A stretch of DNA of 39,216 nucleotides from Bacteroidaceae bacterium. Lineage in GTDB: Bacteria; Bacteroidota; Bacteroidia; Bacteroidales; Bacteroidaceae. Location: positions 1 through 39,216 of the forward strand of contig JAFZKA010000029.1 of NCBI GenBank assembly GCA_017551925.1, given 5' to 3'. Numbering within the stretch: position 1 is the stretch's first letter; each line of letters starts with the position of its first letter. The position numbers and the translations under genes are program-made. Positions 1-5,849 of this stretch are shown piece after piece. The notes below the pieces were generated by a model. It was not told the origin of the DNA and did no database searches. It was given only the letters and a program-made list of their open reading frames with translations.

Positions 1-1496
1 CGTGTAATCTCCTCCATGTTCTGTGGCAGTGGAACCACAACCTTAAGATGGTCAGGATCAACACCTATGCCGCGGCAGATAGCCTCAAACTTGTTGGTGC
101 CGGCACTGTCCTGTCCGCCGGTCATACCGGTGGTAAGGTTATCAGAGATTATTATTGTAATAGGTGAGTTCTCATTTACTGCATCAAGCAGACCTGTCAT
201 ACCGGAGTGGGTGAATGTGCTGTCACCGATGATGGCAACTGCAGGGAACACGCCTGCATCGGCGGCACCCTTGGCCATGGTGATGCTGGCACCCATATCA
301 ACGGTGCTGTCAAGAGCCTGGAACGGAGGCAGGGCACCCAGGGTGTAGCAACCTATATCACCGAATACCTTGGCATTCTTGTAGTCCTTGAGCACAATGT
401 TGATGGCCTCATATACGCTGCGGTGACCGCAACCCTGGCAGAGGGCGGGCGGACGTGCCACAACGTTCTTGGCAACCTCAGGATGCGGCAGCGGAGCCAG
501 ACCCAGGGCAGCCTTTACAATATCGGGGTTGAGTTCTCCCTGACGGGGCAGTTCACCGGTCAGGCGGCCTATGATCTTGCAGTCAGAGGGGAGGATACCT
601 GCCACCTGCTCTTCAACAAAGGGCTGGCCGTCCTCAATAACCATGATTGAGTCACACTGCTCAGCGAGTGTGCGAATGGTCTCAGCAGGTATTGGGTATT
701 GTGAAATCTTGAGTACGGGGAACGGGATTCCCTCGGGGTAGCACTCTGAGAGATAGTTGAATGCATTACCGCAGGCAATGGCACCCATTTTGAAACGCTT
801 GGCCTGGGCCTTGAAACTGTTGAACGGTGATTCAACAGAGAGACGCATAATTTCAGGCTGACGTTCCAGGAGTGAAGCGTAGCGGCGCTTTGCAATAGCG
901 GGCAGCAACACCCAGTCGCGTACGCCGCTTACAGGATTAAGGTCATTCTGATTACGTTTCTCCTTAAGCGATACAACTGCGCGTGAGTGGGCCAGACGTG
1001 TAACGGTACGCATCAGTACGGGCAGTTTGAGACTCTCTGACAGGTCATATGCGTATGACATCATATCATATGCCTCTTGCTGTGATGAGGGCTCAAGCAC
1101 GGGTATCAGGGCAAACTTGCCGTAGAAACGGGTGTCCTGCTCATCCTGTGACGAGTGCATTGAGGGGTCATCGGCCACAAGGACAATCAGACCGCCGTTC
1201 ACGCCGGTGATTGATGAGTTTACGAACGGGTCTGCAGCCACGTTCATACCCACGTGTTTCATACATACCAGTGCACGTTTGCCGGCAAATGACATGCCCA
1301 GAGCAGCCTCCATGGCTGTCTTTTCATTGGTGCACCAGCGGTTGTGTATCTTTTCGGCAGGGTTCTTTTTGCAGTAACCCTGGATGTACTCAGTAATTTC
1401 TGTTGAGGGTGTACCGGGATAGGCATATACTCCGCTCAGTCCGGCATCAATGGCACCCTGTGCAATGGCTTCATCGCCAAGTAAAAGTTTCTTCAT
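1..1496 (-). CDS. iorA: Indolepyruvate (arylpyruvate) ferredoxin oxidoreductase, alpha subunit; 3' end outside window
   Basis: Thiamine-diphosphate subunit of the 2-oxoacid:ferredoxin oxidoreductase that interconverts arylpyruvates and arylacetyl-CoA. Translation from the ATG at 1496 begins MKKLLLGDEAIAQGAIDAGL and stays open to the window edge (about 498 residues seen), so the C-terminal ferredoxin-like Fe-S part of the family is not visible. Recognisable are the N-terminal pyrimidine-binding segment (YPGTPSTEI), the EKTAMEAALG stretch, and the C-terminal TPP-binding segment with ALCQGCGHR, GDIGCYTLGALPP and GDSTFTHSGM. It lies 61 bp after the symporter gene on the same strand and may have its own promoter in that gap. 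iorB is presumably just beyond position 1. The direction of the reaction is inferred from the operon leader (see the attenuator): reductive carboxylation of arylacetyl-CoA toward Phe/Tyr. Substrate preference (indole, phenyl or hydroxyphenyl) cannot be read from sequence. Confidence 0.93.
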   Translation of the reverse strand, partial: MKKLLLGDEAIAQGAIDAGLSGVYAYPGTPSTEITEYIQGYCKKNPAEKIHNRWCTNEKTAMEAALGMSFAGKRALVCMKHVGMNVAADPFVNSSITGVNGGLIVLVADDPSMHSSQDEQDTRFYGKFALIPVLEPSSQQEAYDMMSYAYDLSESLKLPVLMRTVTRLAHSRAVVSLKEKRNQNDLNPVSGVRDWVLLPAIAKRRYASLLERQPEIMRLSVESPFNSFKAQAKRFKMGAIACGNAFNYLSECYPEGIPFPVLKISQYPIPAETIRTLAEQCDSIMVIEDGQPFVEEQVAGILPSDCKIIGRLTGELPRQGELNPDIVKAALGLAPLPHPEVAKNVVARPPALCQGCGHRSVYEAINIVLKDYKNAKVFGDIGCYTLGALPPFQALDSTVDMGASITMAKGAADAGVFPAVAIIGDSTFTHSGMTGLLDAVNENSPITIIISDNLTTGMTGGQDSAGTNKFEAICRGIGVDPDHLKVVVPLPQNMEEIT

Positions 1497-1554: not shown

Positions 1555-1564
1555 TTGTCAATTT
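1532..1564. repeat. Tandem heptamer AATTGTC, about 4.7 copies
   Basis: Four consecutive heptamers (AATTGTC, AATTATC, AATTGTC, AATTGTC) followed by a partial unit AATTT. The stop codon of the symporter gene (1558-1560) lies inside the array. Because the unit is not a multiple of three, a change in copy number would alter the last residues of the symporter. Confidence 0.8.
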
Positions 1565-3135
1565 TTGTTCTCGTCCATAAGTGAGGTAGATGCGCGTACT
1601 GTAACCTCACGGTTGTAGCAATTGAACATCTTGTCAATGCTCTCCTTCTCTTTGACAGATGTAAAGAGGCTTACTATTGGAACAATAACCAAACCTGCTA
1701 CCATTGAGAGCACACCTGCGTTGATAGGTGAACTGAAGTAGGGGCTGATGAATGTGGTACCGGTGAATGTTCCGTACATACATCCGCACATGATGGCTAC
1801 ACCGACAATGAAACTTGCCCAAACAGAGGCTCTGGTGGTCTTTTTCCAGTACAGTCCATAGAGGAAAGGTGCCAGGAATGCACCTGCCAGTGCGCCCCAG
1901 GATATACCCATGAGTTGAGCGATGAATGTTACAGAACTCTTGGCCTGGATGATAGCCAGGACAGATGATACTGCAATGAAGAATACAACCAGCAGGCGGA
2001 TTGAGAGCAGTTGTGATTTCTCACTCATCTGCTTGCCGCCCTTGGCCATAGCAGGCTTGATAATATCAAGGGTAAGTGTTGAACCCGATGTCAGAACCAG
2101 CGATGAAAGGGTTGACATTGATGCTGAGAGCACCAGAATGATAACCACGCCAATCATCAGGTCAGGCAGAGTCTGAAGCATTGAAGGTACGATGCTGTCG
2201 TAGATGGGGCCTTTGGGGCCGTATTCGATGACACTGCCGTACAGACGACCGAAACCGCCCAGGAAATAGCAACCGCCAGCCACGATGATGGCAAAGAAGG
2301 TTGAAATGAATGTTCCCTTGCGGATAGCGGCCTCATCACGGATGGCGTAGAACTTACCTACCATCTGGGGCAGACCCCATGTGCCGAGTGATGTAAGCAG
2401 CACAACACCCAGCAGGTAGATGGGTTGCGGGCCGAAGAACGATGTAAAGGCGCCGTTCAATCCGGGTGCTGCCTCGCTGGGAATCTGTGACAGTTTCTCA
2501 ATTGCTGCGGTGAAACCGCCGTTTCCGTTCAGTACAGAAAGGATAACGGCAACTATACCTACCAGCATTATCATACCCTGTATGAAGTCATTTACTGCTG
2601 TAGCCATATAACCGCCCACCAGAACGTAAATACCGGTAAGTATGGCCATTCCAAGAACGCACCAACTGTAGTCAATACCGAATGAGAGTCCGAACAGACG
2701 TGACAGACCGTTGTAGAGTGATGCGGTATAAGGAATAAGGAATACAAACACAATTACTGATGCTGCCACCTTGAGAGCCTCAGAGTTGAAACGCTGACCA
2801 AAGAAATCAGGCATTGTGGCACTCTTAAGGTACTGGGTCATAAGACGTGTGCGGCGGCCCAGGATTCTCCAGGCAAGGAGTGAACCTATGATGGCGTTGC
2901 CAAGTCCGATCCAGGTTGATGCCAGACCGTATTTCCAACCGAACTGACCTGCGTAACCTACAAAGATTACGGCTGAAAAATATGATGTACCAAAGGCGAA
3001 AGCAGTGAGCCATGAGCCTACCTTGCGGTCACCCAGTACAAAACCCTGTACGTTGTTTGCGGTTTTACGGCAATAGATTCCTACGCCTATCATTACGGCG
3101 AAAAACAGTATAAGAATCAGAATTTTCAGAAACAT
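1558..3135 (-). CDS. Sodium:solute symporter family transporter, probable arylacetate/aromatic acid importer
   Basis: A 525-residue integral membrane protein of the sodium:solute symporter (SSS/LeuT-fold) family. Hydrophobic segments follow one another from residue 2 to about 490, roughly 13 helices, with the family-typical GTSYFSAVIFVGYAG near residue 50, GGYMATAVNDFIQG near 175 and SASMSTLSSLVLTSGS near 340. Length is normal for the family. It is the third gene of the arylacetate-CoA ligase / ACT / symporter / iorA run, 40 bp after the ACT gene, so it shares the Phe/Tyr attenuator upstream. Substrate specificity cannot be seen in the sequence. Uptake of phenylacetate or related arylacetates is inferred from operon membership alone; proline-like or other substrates of the family remain possible. 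Confidence 0.85.
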   Translation of the reverse strand: MFLKILILILFFAVMIGVGIYCRKTANNVQGFVLGDRKVGSWLTAFAFGTSYFSAVIFVGYAGQFGWKYGLASTWIGLGNAIIGSLLAWRILGRRTRLMTQYLKSATMPDFFGQRFNSEALKVAASVIVFVFLIPYTASLYNGLSRLFGLSFGIDYSWCVLGMAILTGIYVLVGGYMATAVNDFIQGMIMLVGIVAVILSVLNGNGGFTAAIEKLSQIPSEAAPGLNGAFTSFFGPQPIYLLGVVLLTSLGTWGLPQMVGKFYAIRDEAAIRKGTFISTFFAIIVAGGCYFLGGFGRLYGSVIEYGPKGPIYDSIVPSMLQTLPDLMIGVVIILVLSASMSTLSSLVLTSGSTLTLDIIKPAMAKGGKQMSEKSQLLSIRLLVVFFIAVSSVLAIIQAKSSVTFIAQLMGISWGALAGAFLAPFLYGLYWKKTTRASVWASFIVGVAIMCGCMYGTFTGTTFISPYFSSPINAGVLSMVAGLVIVPIVSLFTSVKEKESIDKMFNCYNREVTVRASTSLMDENKN

Positions 3136-3606: not shown

Positions 3607-4908
3607 TTAATGGTTGTTGCGCAAATCATTCACTCTCTTGGCCTTGCCGTCTGACTGCGGGATAACGCCTTTGCCTACCAGTTTCACCTTAGGTGTGAAC
3701 AGCAGTTCATCCTTGAGGCGGCGGGTAATCTCCTTTGTCAGGTTCTGGAGCATAGCGAAATCATCAGTAGCCTGTGCAAGTTCGGCCTCAATGGTCATCT
3801 CATCATTGTCACCGACAGTCTCAATGGTGATAAGGTAGTCGCTGGCCAGTTCCGGGAACTGCATCAGTATCTTTTCAATCTGAATGGGATAGAGGTTCAC
3901 GCCCTTGACAATAAGCATATCGTCACTGCGTCCCTGGAAACGTGCCAGACGTTTGTGGGTACGTCCGCAGGGGCAGTCACCCGGCAGAATGCGGGTAAGG
4001 TCACGTGTACGGTAACGGAACAGCGGCATGGCCTCACGGTTCAAGGTGGTAAGAACCAACTCTCCAAGTTCACCCTCCGGAACGGGCTCCAGAGTTTCGG
4101 GATCAAGAATCTCAACAATGTAGTTGTCCTCCCAGATATGCATGCCGTTCTGCTCCTGACACTCGATAGCCACGCCGGGGCCGCACATCTCACTCATACC
4201 GAAGTTGTTGTAGGCCTTGGCTCCCCAAATCTCTTCAATACGTTTGCGCTGTGCCTCAGAGTGAGGTTCGGCACCGATGATAAGGGTATGGACGGTGGTG
4301 TTGCGCGGGTCAATGCCTTCCTCCTGGAATGCGGCTGCCAGACGAGTGGCGTATGAAGGTATGCAGTGAAGTGCTGTAGTACCGAAGTCCGTGATGAACT
4401 TTACATGACGCTTGCTGTTGCCGGCACCTGCAGGAACGGTGAGAGCGCCAAGACGCTCTGCGGCATACTGAATACCCAGACCGCCGGTAAACATACCGTA
4501 ACCTGATGTGTTCTGGATAATATCGGTATTGCGCAGACCTATGCAGTACATGGAGCGTGCCATTGCATCGGCCCACTCGTCAAGGTCTTTCTGTGTATGA
4601 AGTATAACGGTAGGATTACCGGTAGTACCGCTTGATGAGTGCAGGCGTACAACCTTTTCCAACGGAACTGACTTGATGCCGAAGGGGTAGGTGGCACGCA
4701 GGTCGTTCTTAGTTGTGAAGGGGAAACGCTTTATGTCCTCAACAGACTTGATACTCTCAGGGGTAATACCCAGTTCCTTGAATTTGGGAGCGTAGAATTC
4801 GCTGCCCATTGCAATCTCTACGGTTTTCTTGAGACGCTCCACCTGCAGTTTCTCCAACTGCTTGCGGGGTATGGTCTCAATCTCTTCATTCCAGTATTTA
4901 CTGTTCAT
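3607..4908 (-). CDS. paaK: Phenylacetate (arylacetate)-CoA ligase
   Basis: AMP-forming ligase (433 residues) that activates phenylacetate or related arylacetates to the CoA thioester, the substrate for IorAB. Visible motifs are the phosphate-binding loop HSSSGTTGNPT (about residue 90), the FGMSEMCGPGVA adenylate motif, and the C-terminal ARFQGRSDDMLIVKGVNLYP hinge typical of the PaaK family. The start was placed at the ATG at 4908 (MNSKYWNEEIETIPRKQLE), which matches the family N-terminus. An in-frame upstream ATG at 4953 would add 15 residues but lies inside the terminator hairpin of the leader. First structural gene of the operon, 35 bp downstream of the attenuator hairpin. Codes for no extra domains and shows no truncation. 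Confidence 0.93.
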   Translation of the reverse strand: MNSKYWNEEIETIPRKQLEKLQVERLKKTVEIAMGSEFYAPKFKELGITPESIKSVEDIKRFPFTTKNDLRATYPFGIKSVPLEKVVRLHSSSGTTGNPTVILHTQKDLDEWADAMARSMYCIGLRNTDIIQNTSGYGMFTGGLGIQYAAERLGALTVPAGAGNSKRHVKFITDFGTTALHCIPSYATRLAAAFQEEGIDPRNTTVHTLIIGAEPHSEAQRKRIEEIWGAKAYNNFGMSEMCGPGVAIECQEQNGMHIWEDNYIVEILDPETLEPVPEGELGELVLTTLNREAMPLFRYRTRDLTRILPGDCPCGRTHKRLARFQGRSDDMLIVKGVNLYPIQIEKILMQFPELASDYLITIETVGDNDEMTIEAELAQATDDFAMLQNLTKEITRRLKDELLFTPKVKLVGKGVIPQSDGKAKRVNDLRNNH

Positions 4909-4942
4909 TTTTATATGTTTTTTTGTCGTTATCAAAAACAAA

Positions 4943-4965
4943 ACCTGCCTCATTGTGGGGCAGGT
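4943..4965 (-). terminator. Attenuator terminator hairpin in the arylacetate operon leader
   Basis: Minus-strand RNA reads ACCTGCC, a 9-nt loop, then GGCAGGT, followed at once by TTTGTTTTTGAT. This is a 7-bp GC-rich stem plus U-tract, i.e. an intrinsic terminator placed between the leader peptide and the ligase gene. Its 5' arm can alternatively pair with upstream sequence (5001-5010). Confidence 0.85.
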
Positions 4966-5044
4966 CTATGATGATTGTCATGTCTTTTTAAATCATACCT
5001 CCTTGCCCCACGTTCAGTCGCGGTAATAAAAATAATTGGAGGTA
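4943..5044 (-). promoter_or_regulatory. Transcription attenuator with mutually exclusive stems (Phe/Tyr responsive)
   Basis: Four segments can be read on the minus strand. Segment 1, TACCTCC (5044-5038), lies within leader codons 4-7. Segment 2 runs from TGGGGCAAGG (5010-5001) into GGAGGTA (5002-4996). Segment 3 is ACCTGCCCCA (4965-4956) and segment 4 is GGCAGGT (4949-4943). Segment 1 is a perfect 7-bp complement of the end of segment 2. TGGGGCAAGG pairs with CCTGCCCCA of segment 3 with one bulge, and segments 3 and 4 form the terminator. This is the 1:2 / 2:3 / 3:4 logic of classical amino-acid attenuators. A ribosome stalled on the Tyr-Phe-Tyr-Tyr codons would cover segment 1 and free 2 to block the terminator. 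Confidence 0.82.
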
Positions 5045-5058
5045 ACGTAAAACTTCAT
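5014..5058 (-). CDS. Phe/Tyr-rich attenuation leader peptide (14 aa)
   Basis: A 14-codon open frame, MKFYVTSNYFYYRD followed by TGA, starts at 5058 in the short leader downstream of a consensus promoter. Six of 14 residues are Phe or Tyr, including the run Tyr-Phe-Tyr-Tyr at codons 9-12. Its stop lies 3 nt before the antiterminator segment. The peptide is too short to have a function of its own; composition and position show it to be a ribosome-stalling sensor of charged tRNA-Phe and tRNA-Tyr. It contains no Trp codon, which argues that the operon responds to Phe/Tyr rather than Trp despite the 'indolepyruvate' name of IorA. The Bacteroidetes lack of Shine-Dalgarno use means the start rests on frame and context. 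Confidence 0.82.
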   Translation of the reverse strand: MKFYVTSNYFYYRD

Positions 5059-5081
5059 GTCTGTATGCTAATTAGGCAGCG

Positions 5082-5112
5082 CAAATTTAGTATAATAATC
5101 GGTCAATTCAAA
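5082..5112 (-). promoter_or_regulatory. Promoter of the arylacetate/aromatic operon
   Basis: Minus-strand TTTG (5112-5109), a 19-nt spacer, then TAAATTTG (5089-5082), an exact match to the Bacteroidetes TTTG / TAnnTTTG promoter. The leader peptide ATG follows 23 nt later. Confidence 0.85.
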
Positions 5113-5126
5113 TGATTGACACTTTT

Positions 5127-5849
5127 TTATTTGATTTTCAGATACTCATCAATCAGATAATCCGCTCCTTTATCTGAAATGCCTATGTAGTAATAGAGCG
5201 GCTGGTTTGCCGTAACCTCTTTTTTGAGGAATACATTGCCTGAACCTCTGTCTGTTATCCTGTGTTCGACATCGGGCATAATTATGATTGCAGTTATGCT
5301 GTCAATGTATTTTACCGCATAGCCGTTCTCAATCTCAGAGACAGAGCCTTTATAGCCGATGGGCATGCCGGCGGCAATGTTGAGAATATCAAACTGGCCG
5401 TTATAATAATCTATCACCTTGATTATGGGGCTATCCTTGTATATTGTTATCTGCTTGTCAAGCGATATGGCCGCATCAAGAACATCCCAGTTGTCATAAT
5501 GTAAACGGATATCGGTCTGCTGTGGGGTATTGGACAGGATCTCGGCCATGGAGCAACCTTTTGGAGATGCATACAGGCCGCTTGTGCCCTGTGGCGCCGA
5601 GGCTCCGTAGCCAAGTGCGGTATTATCCTCTTTAAGGTTTACAAGTTTACCGTCAATTCTGACTGCGGCCTGGAAAGCGGGCAGGTCATTCCTTTTGTCT
5701 TTTGAGTCCATATCAGTACGGAACTCAACCATGGTATTACCCCATTTTACATACTTTCCTGTTTTCTTGAAATAGGTATTGCCACCGGTATTGCAGCCAT
5801 AGACTGAGAATAACAGCAGAAAGGTCAAGTACGATAATAACTTTTTCAT
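5127..5849 (-). CDS. Lipoprotein of unknown function, possibly DUF4861-like
   Basis: A 240-residue protein with a signal peptide and lipobox (MKKLLSYLTFLLLFSVYGC; the lipidated Cys would be residue 19), so it is probably anchored in the outer or inner membrane. The rest is beta-rich with aromatic-rich strands, and fragments such as ALGYGASAPQGTSGLYA and PIIKVIDYYNGQFDI recall DUF4861 proteins. No catalytic motif was recognised and the family match is weak. It is the last gene of the nucleoside kinase-rpoN-purE-ispG-cysS-QC-sufE run, 2 bp after sufE, and its expression presumably depends on the promoter upstream of 13778. No function is proposed. Confidence 0.65.
   Translation of the reverse strand: MKKLLSYLTFLLLFSVYGCNTGGNTYFKKTGKYVKWGNTMVEFRTDMDSKDKRNDLPAFQAAVRIDGKLVNLKEDNTALGYGASAPQGTSGLYASPKGCSMAEILSNTPQQTDIRLHYDNWDVLDAAISLDKQITIYKDSPIIKVIDYYNGQFDILNIAAGMPIGYKGSVSEIENGYAVKYIDSITAIIIMPDVEHRITDRGSGNVFLKKEVTANQPLYYYIGISDKGADYLIDEYLKIK

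Follow-up and report, generated by a model that had tools for sequence, protein, structure and literature searches.

A probable tyrosine-specific transcription attenuator upstream of an arylacetate-CoA ligase and symporter operon in Bacteroidaceae

Layout of the locus

The window, i.e. the complete stretch of 39,216 nt analysed here, contains near its start an operon on the minus strand, whose 5' region (4943-5112) had been read in an earlier note as a leader-peptide attenuator. All parts named there are present, on the minus strand, which the note had not given; of the 170-bp span only the end needs correction, as the T-rich tract extends to 4934, slightly outside. The features are as follows.

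5082..5112, minus strand: Bacteroidetes-type promoter TTTG-N19-TAAATTTG; a similar promoter lies at a similar distance from the ATG in relatives
5014..5058, minus strand: leader ORF MKFYVTSNYFYYRD with stop codon; a Tyr-rich leader is found at the same place in 16 relatives
5038..5044, minus strand: segment 1, TACCTCC, within the leader ORF; assessed by pairing with own versus swapped partners
5023..5034, minus strand: control codons TAT TTT TAT TAC (Tyr-Phe-Tyr-Tyr); all Tyr in most relatives
5005..5011, minus strand: core of segment 2, GTGGGGC, 11 nt past the last Tyr codon; pairs with GCCCCAC
4996..5002, minus strand: distal part of segment 2, GGAGGTA, partner of segment 1; assessed by pairing with own versus swapped partners
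4955..4967, minus strand: segment 3, AGACCTGCCCCAC; its GCCCCAC pairs with the segment 2 core, its AGACCTGCC with segment 4
4934..4949, minus strand: segment 4, GGCAGGTTT, and T-rich tract, the putative intrinsic terminator 3:4; from fold and covariation
3607..4908, minus strand: paaK, arylacetate (phenylacetate)-CoA ligase; PF00501 and PF14535
3176..3595, minus strand: ACT-domain pair protein (ACT_8); domain match
1558..3135, minus strand: putative sodium:solute symporter (SSF family); family match
3..1496, minus strand: iorA, indolepyruvate:ferredoxin oxidoreductase alpha subunit, cut by the contig end

The T tract of the terminator ends 25 nt upstream of paaK, which starts at 4908, and the operon follows the order leader-paaK-ACT-symporter, to which some genomes add iorA-iorB-aminotransferase. 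The best NCBIfam model for paaK, TIGR02155, reaches 461 bits, under its cut-off of 646. TIGR03336 matches iorA with 497 bits over profile positions 1-473 of 595, under the cut-off of 651, the gene being incomplete. For the symporter, all named NCBIfam models (PutP, PanF and others) stay under their cut-offs, and the substrate is not readable from the sequence. The ligase, the ACT protein and iorA had already been placed in this operon, while the symporter had not been listed.

The consensus promoter claimed before is found at 5112-5082 as TTTG-N19-TAAATTTG, which we take to be of the Bacteroidetes promoter type. A sigma-70 scan, ill-suited to this phylum, was set aside and the Bacteroidetes consensus used in its place. 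Relative to the leader ATG, the promoter is similarly placed in 11 of the 17 leaders described below with a strict pattern and in all 17 with a relaxed one. Downstream of the leader, the GC-rich core GTGGGGC (5011-5005) is followed by AAGGAGGTA on the minus strand. Just upstream of the attenuator, positions 5127-5849 weakly match the BT3233 family model; in congeners a version 25-59% identical lies at the same place, or none was found.

At gathering thresholds, no Rfam family was found in the attenuator region and only a tRNA elsewhere in the window, and a single sRNA match between 4880 and 5140 is at chance level (E 0.43). The region has no match to a known RNA family at this level, the T-box model included.

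Conservation of the leader and its pairings

Taken alone, the fold of the window is weak evidence: the minus strand gives z = -2.2, with 4 of 200 shuffles folding equally well. A plus-strand structure (z -3.0) was discarded, as it shows the same inverted repeats from the opposite strand, while the operon lies on the minus strand. When the 218-nt intergenic stretch was shuffled 5000 times with its dinucleotides preserved, 32 shuffles contained an ORF of 10-25 codons with 4 of 5 Phe/Tyr, a count made before any demand for a terminator or alternative stems. At the level of sequence, the strong test of whether the element is real is the conservation of its layout in 16 relatives and not the fold of a single sequence. 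Together with the window these give 17 leaders (16 distinct sequences), and common to all 17 are the promoter position, the Tyr-rich leader, the antiterminator pairing and the terminator.

As described before, the leader of the window has 14 codons, six of them Phe/Tyr; it runs from the ATG at 5058 to 5014 on the minus strand. Leader peptides of the relatives include MKSLYTSYFYYYYRD, MNVRFASAYYYYYYRT, MKFNVTSYYYYYYRT, MRSQQTYSYYCYCYYRT and MSFGYTYYYYYYRT. Across the 17 leaders the N-terminal part is variable, while in 16 an Arg comes after the Tyr-rich run, with Thr, Asp or Asn as the next residue, the exception being L026 (MKGNGYTAYSYCSLT), a poor case with three Tyr and a core spacing of 19 nt. 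Each leader has 3-7 Tyr; 13 of the 17 have an unbroken run of at least four, and YYYYYY occurs in 10 of the 16 relatives. Less pure runs are those of the window (Phe), L011 and L012 (Phe, or Phe and His), and L024 and L083 (Cys). In the 15 leaders compared codon by codon, the run positions alternate mainly between TAT and TAC, as expected if selection acts on tyrosine. Given this variation, the YYYYYY motif and the Tyr runs, tyrosine rather than Phe/Tyr is most likely the amino acid sensed. Hence, of the Phe/Tyr signal proposed earlier, the enrichment in aromatic codons holds, but Phe as a part of the signal does not: the relatives are mostly all-Tyr, and the two Phe codons of the window are unusual among the 17 leaders.

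The three mutually exclusive pairings and the terminator with its U-tract were likewise all found on the minus strand, and segment 1 (TACCTCC, 5044-5038) lies inside the leader codons ahead of the Tyr run, as the earlier note had stated. In the window, the 3:4 hairpin is formed by AGACCTGCC (4967-4959) and GGCAGGTTT (4949-4941), and the 2:3 pairing by GTGGGGC (5011-5005) and GCCCCAC (4961-4955). The hairpin with its T-rich tract is present in all 17 leaders, and the tract ends ahead of the paaK start without enclosing it. In an alignment of the 16 distinct rows (A1), on which the covariation analysis of 3:4 and 2:3 is based, 97.9% of the 3:4 cells are paired, compared to 32-59% with the partner slid; seven of the nine pairs changed on both sides, and none of 500 shuffles scored as high. 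For 2:3, anchored by hand, at least six of the seven core positions are kept in 17 of 17 leaders; in A1, 92.9% of the cells are paired, versus 44-57% with the partner slid. Here the covariation is moderate, with double changes in three of seven pairs (6 of 500 shuffles as high), although no shuffle out of 500 reached the covariation score. By the measure of further pair types shuffles come close, with 15 of 500 for 3:4 and 75 of 500 for 2:3.

Segment 1 differs nearly completely between lineages and cannot be aligned, which is why 1:2 was evaluated by a swap test, i.e. by the duplex energy between the stretch from the leader ATG through the Tyr run and the 22 nt after the core. For 15 leaders, the mean was -15.0 kcal/mol with their own partner and -9.4 kcal/mol with permuted ones, and 0 of 20,000 permutations reached the former. 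With nine representatives, one per lineage as grouped by the analyst, the true assignment was the best of all 362,880 permutations. When 13 representatives were used, including four symporter leaders from other genera, it was reached by 0 of 200,000 permutations; the own partner ranked first in 7 of 13, and the window's own segment 2 was third of 13. An alignment of relatives, which had been proposed as a check, hence shows both Tyr-codon enrichment and covarying stems.

A short ORF that is functionless low-complexity sequence, or hairpins that act on paaK translation, would be a highly improbable explanation: Phe/Tyr-rich leaders can arise by chance in such AT-rich sequence, as the shuffles show, but a terminator with a T-rich tract stands upstream of the paaK start in every leader, and three alternative stems covary.

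To follow the distribution of the leader, PaaK relatives from named genomes were used, the best 80 of 319. The 33 nearest loci (L001-L033) carry a Tyr-rich leader at the same place in 14 cases and lack it in 19; directly before the gene, 17 of those 19 leader-less loci have a TAAATTTG-like box, judged by eye. For L007 the box was judged from the start of a partial paaK copy: between 2001 and 2193 of this locus, and at G035:C9:34484-34579, a partial copy of the first 32 paaK codons with an internal stop precedes the intact gene. No Tyr-run leader was found in the 47 more distant loci (L034-L080) in the upstream stretch of up to 600 nt, which was shorter where a contig ended. Weakly aromatic ORFs in four of these have no Tyr run, and none was judged a leader. 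A pattern search in 37 genomes of the genus returned 12 matches, all before paaK, which contributed two new leaders (L083, L088). Counted per genome with a readable paaK upstream region, the leader is present in 16 of 36 genomes (among them G007, G010, G015, G016, G021 and G023) and absent in 20; G014, where the best match is partial, 65% identical and at a contig start, was left out.

Some leader-less congeners have a PaaK that is 97-98% identical. To explain the distribution of the leader over the paaK tree, at least four gains or losses are required, two of them enforced by supported branches; the leader is present in deep lineages of the genus, and a weakly supported clade of 22 rows is mixed, with 18 lacking it and four having it. 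An ortholog of DAHP synthase is missing in 12 of 16 leader-bearing versus 3 of 20 leader-less genomes (Fisher p 0.0005). As the tree gives one supported independent pair only, we draw no causal link between the leader and this loss; shared ancestry may explain the association. The absence of TyrA was not associated with the leader (4 of 16 versus 3 of 20, p 0.67).

Ribosome geometry and the proposed switch

In 16 of the 17 leaders the antiterminator core starts 10-13 nt past the last Tyr codon (19 nt in L026), which is the spacing a stalled ribosome would need to free the core. For the fold model we assumed a footprint reaching 12 nt beyond the first base of the A-site codon. A modelled ribosome awaiting Tyr-tRNA at the last Tyr codon would leave the whole core free, while one at the stop codon covers it fully in 15 of 17 leaders and in all but one base in L024 and L026. 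With the ribosome stalled and segment 4 not yet made, the core pairs with segment 3 with a probability of at least 0.81 in 17 of 17 leaders; with the ribosome at the stop codon, 3:4 forms with at least 0.82, again in 17 of 17.

Two limits were seen in the same model. When the full transcript of a stalled complex was brought to equilibrium, 2:3 beat 3:4 in only six of the 17 leaders, including the window; the remaining ones need a head start of 2:3 over 3:4. If no ribosome is present and segment 4 has yet to be transcribed, 2:3 prevails with at least 0.80 in seven of 17, with 0.99 in the window, so that an untranslated leader may read through. Both limits imply that the order of synthesis must matter, as it does in known attenuators.

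All of the evidence is computational, and to the anatomy, conservation, covariation and geometry observed, the following scheme adds termination and read-through, which we infer. Transcription would start ~20 nt upstream of the leader ATG, and a ribosome would translate the leader behind the polymerase. With ample Tyr-tRNA, the ribosome would reach the stop codon and its footprint would cover the segment 2 core, leaving segment 3 to pair with segment 4, and transcription would end before paaK. If Tyr-tRNA is scarce, the ribosome would stall on the Tyr run, masking segment 1 but stopping just short of the core; the latter would then pair with segment 3, no terminator would form and the operon would be read. 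In the absence of a ribosome, the 1:2 pairing would keep the core occupied.

We regard it as very probable that the element is a tyrosine-specific, ribosome-mediated transcription attenuator of the classical trp/his type; the conservation and covariation among the relatives thus bear out the earlier reading as a leader-peptide attenuator. The mechanism itself is classical and not new. Proteobacterial attenuators (trp, his, pheA, pheST) combine a leader peptide that has a run of control codons with alternative 1:2, 2:3 and 3:4 pairings and an intrinsic terminator, and the first gene lies just downstream. The Tyr leader resembles these in its codon run, exclusive pairings, intrinsic terminator and close first gene, but differs in the control by tyrosine, in the target, which is ligase-ACT-symporter(-IOR) or the symporter, and in the Bacteroidetes promoter. 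Tyr T-box riboswitches of Firmicutes also sense the charging of Tyr-tRNA and act on a terminator, as is proposed here, yet they need no leader ORF, and no T-box model matches the present element.

Related leaders and the role of the operon

A covariance model built from the 17 leaders (R1) has matches with an E-value of at most 0.01 in 210 of 399 Bacteroidaceae genomes, which cover 26 of the 30 genera. Downstream genes are known for the 17 family loci inspected among these matches (L181-L197). Eight are Phe/Tyr leaders before a prephenate dehydratase that is 66-70% identical to, or is, the PF00800 protein of L203, although the match opens without an ATG in two of them, L193 and L194; five are Tyr-rich leaders before a symporter like that of the window, three precede a DAHP synthase and one paaK. 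At order level, R1 matches 48 of 393 genomes at 1e-4. The 18 loci inspected there comprise seven Phe/Tyr leaders before prephenate dehydratase, four leaders (two Phe/Tyr, two Tyr) before a gene weakly similar to aminotransferase and, judged by eye, a YYYWYYY leader before a similar-looking gene, a YYYHY leader before a gene resembling prephenate dehydrogenase and two WWW leaders before genes resembling trpB and trpE; three have no convincing aromatic leader.

The window's genome itself contains a further leader of this kind, before an operon of DAHP synthase, tyrA and pheA (named by Pfam) with aroB and aroA (by eye), in the order DAHP synthase-tyrA-aroB-aroA-pheA.

G000:C29, L099:5503-5660, minus strand: Phe/Tyr/Trp leader MKAINAYYFYFWFTRQYAG and terminator, before the DAHP synthase operon

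Within the genus, an aromatic leader precedes every one of the 22 DAHP-synthase loci examined; 18 of these leaders combine Phe, Tyr and Trp, while four (L118, L120-L122) contain Phe and Tyr but no Trp. In the window's genome, each of the two hisG copies lies behind an HHHH leader, and the sequence there shows a hairpin and a T tract. Judging from these leaders before DAHP synthase, hisG, prephenate dehydratase and the symporter, leader-peptide attenuation looks general in these bacteria.

In the literature, a 2005 paper (PMC1262725) lists, in the accessible part, attenuators for histidine, threonine and phenylalanine, and tyrosine under T-boxes. Within the same phylum, leader-peptide attenuation of amino-acid operons is strongly hinted at for Flavobacterium psychrophilum in the accessible text of PMC9723704, which also lists conserved, structured 5' elements ahead of pheA and of hisG. 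Leaders before prephenate dehydratase and hisG are also found here, while the Tyr class and the arylacetate/symporter operon are named here and not in that part of the account. Short ORFs reminiscent of leader peptides in 5' UTRs of Bacteroides thetaiotaomicron are mentioned in the part of PMC7366714 at hand, and the corresponding part of PMC4833913, on reinitiation at leader genes, has nothing on a Tyr attenuator. Among the matches listed in the open-access literature, seen in part and with subscription papers mostly beyond reach, we found no Tyr-specific classical attenuator and none on a paaK/symporter operon. A Tyr class with such a target in Bacteroidales hence seems undescribed, in line with the earlier note's 'no described example', although attenuation as such is not undescribed in the phylum (PMC9723704, PMC7366714, as far as accessible). 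The present leaders provide a covariation-backed attenuator set for Bacteroidota, for which the accessible parts of these two papers hold only hints.

The ribosome could also be stalled by free tyrosine or by the nascent peptide, similar to TnaC, in which case the operon would be on in times of plenty and serve catabolism. This would fit the indolepyruvate oxidoreductase (IOR) of B. thetaiotaomicron, which is reported to convert phenylalanine to phenylacetate, as cited in the accessible part of PMC13285125. We consider it very improbable, as what is conserved is the Tyr run and its constant spacing to the antiterminator core, while the N-terminal residues vary freely. Arrest peptides require specific residues. 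Moreover, the sister leaders carry codons of their own operon's product: Phe/Tyr before prephenate dehydratase, Phe/Tyr/Trp before DAHP synthase, His before hisG and Trp before the trpB- and trpE-like genes.

Returning to a switch controlled by Tyr-tRNA charging, the operon is probably a means of supplying the cell with tyrosine or tyrosine precursors during a shortage of this amino acid. An arylacetate or an aromatic amino acid would enter through the symporter; the ligase would convert the arylacetate to arylacetyl-CoA, from which IorAB and the aminotransferase, where present, would yield an aromatic amino acid by reductive carboxylation and transamination. Since the switch would open when Tyr-tRNA is uncharged, its direction, and not an observed flux, favours acquisition or biosynthesis over fermentation. 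Rumen work by Allison and others is said to have dealt with aromatic amino acids made from arylacetates. Phenylalanine from phenylacetate in rumen cultures is mentioned in the accessible part of PMC7356843. According to the accessible text of PMC13285125 (2026), the ligase gene next to IOR in Bacteroides codes for an arylacetate-CoA ligase, for which a biosynthetic role is suggested, and the same text cites the B. thetaiotaomicron IOR in the opposite direction. Whether ligase and IOR make or break aromatic amino acids in gut Bacteroidales is hence unsettled, with both sides given there as far as accessible; a switch opening on tyrosine shortage would be evidence for the biosynthetic or uptake side.

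The leader-bearing genome G001 (L097) continues the operon with iorB and an aminotransferase, and ligase-IorA-IorB-aminotransferase is complete in the loci of G001, G024 and G018 (L097, L164, L167), of which L164 and L167 belong to leader-less genomes with the same gene order. IorA runs to the contig end in the window and in L165, and no IorA was found after the symporter in L098 and L166. Of the Tyr-leader paaK loci, 15 (14 and the window) could be read far enough to show the symporter gene, and every one has it; leader-less congeners carry it as well.

The attenuator may act as described but primarily serve the symporter, which would take up tyrosine or an aromatic acid, whereas the ligase genes would merely have joined the transcript in this genus; we rate this as quite possible, though somewhat short of an even chance. 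In two other genera, g7 and g22, the Tyr leader stands directly before a symporter that is 80-82% identical to that of the window (L181, L183, L184, L185, L187). In L198 and L200 the gene that follows encodes an unnamed protein with a signal-like start, without an NCBIfam match in L200. No relative of ligase, IOR or aminotransferase was found in the fetched stretch of five out of five g7/g22 loci, of which L201 extends just ~250 nt past the symporter gene. For the five genomes concerned plus one more, the nearest ligase relatives (~70% identical) have no aromatic leader within 350 nt (six of six). Besides the constant presence of the symporter, G016 and G023 have no ior gene after it. On the other side, ligase and ACT stand first in this genus, directly after the attenuator, and some of its genomes append iorA-iorB-aminotransferase; the symporter also occurs in leader-less congeners, and none of the models under cut-off (PutP, PanF and others) lets its substrate be read from the sequence. 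In other families, Tyr-rich leaders precede aminotransferase-like or prephenate-dehydrogenase-like genes (L222, L224, L228) and not a symporter.

In a wider reading, to which we give an even chance, aromatic attenuators of the classes Phe/Tyr, Phe/Tyr/Trp and Tyr would be widespread in Bacteroidales, with the Tyr class governing the acquisition of arylacetates or aromatic amino acids. If true, the ligase-IOR route of gut and rumen bacteria would be switched on as a tyrosine supply and not as a fermentation.

Two minor observations concern leaders for other amino acids. The hisG copies of the window's genome (L132 and L133, on G000:C126 and G000:C1) each have their own YHHHHTCR leader, and their presence in one assembly may reflect a duplication or mixed strains. 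In L230, an Ile/Leu/Val-rich leader, MNNLFVISILPIILLVVQN, precedes a gene resembling dihydroxy-acid dehydratase and is perhaps a branched-chain attenuator.
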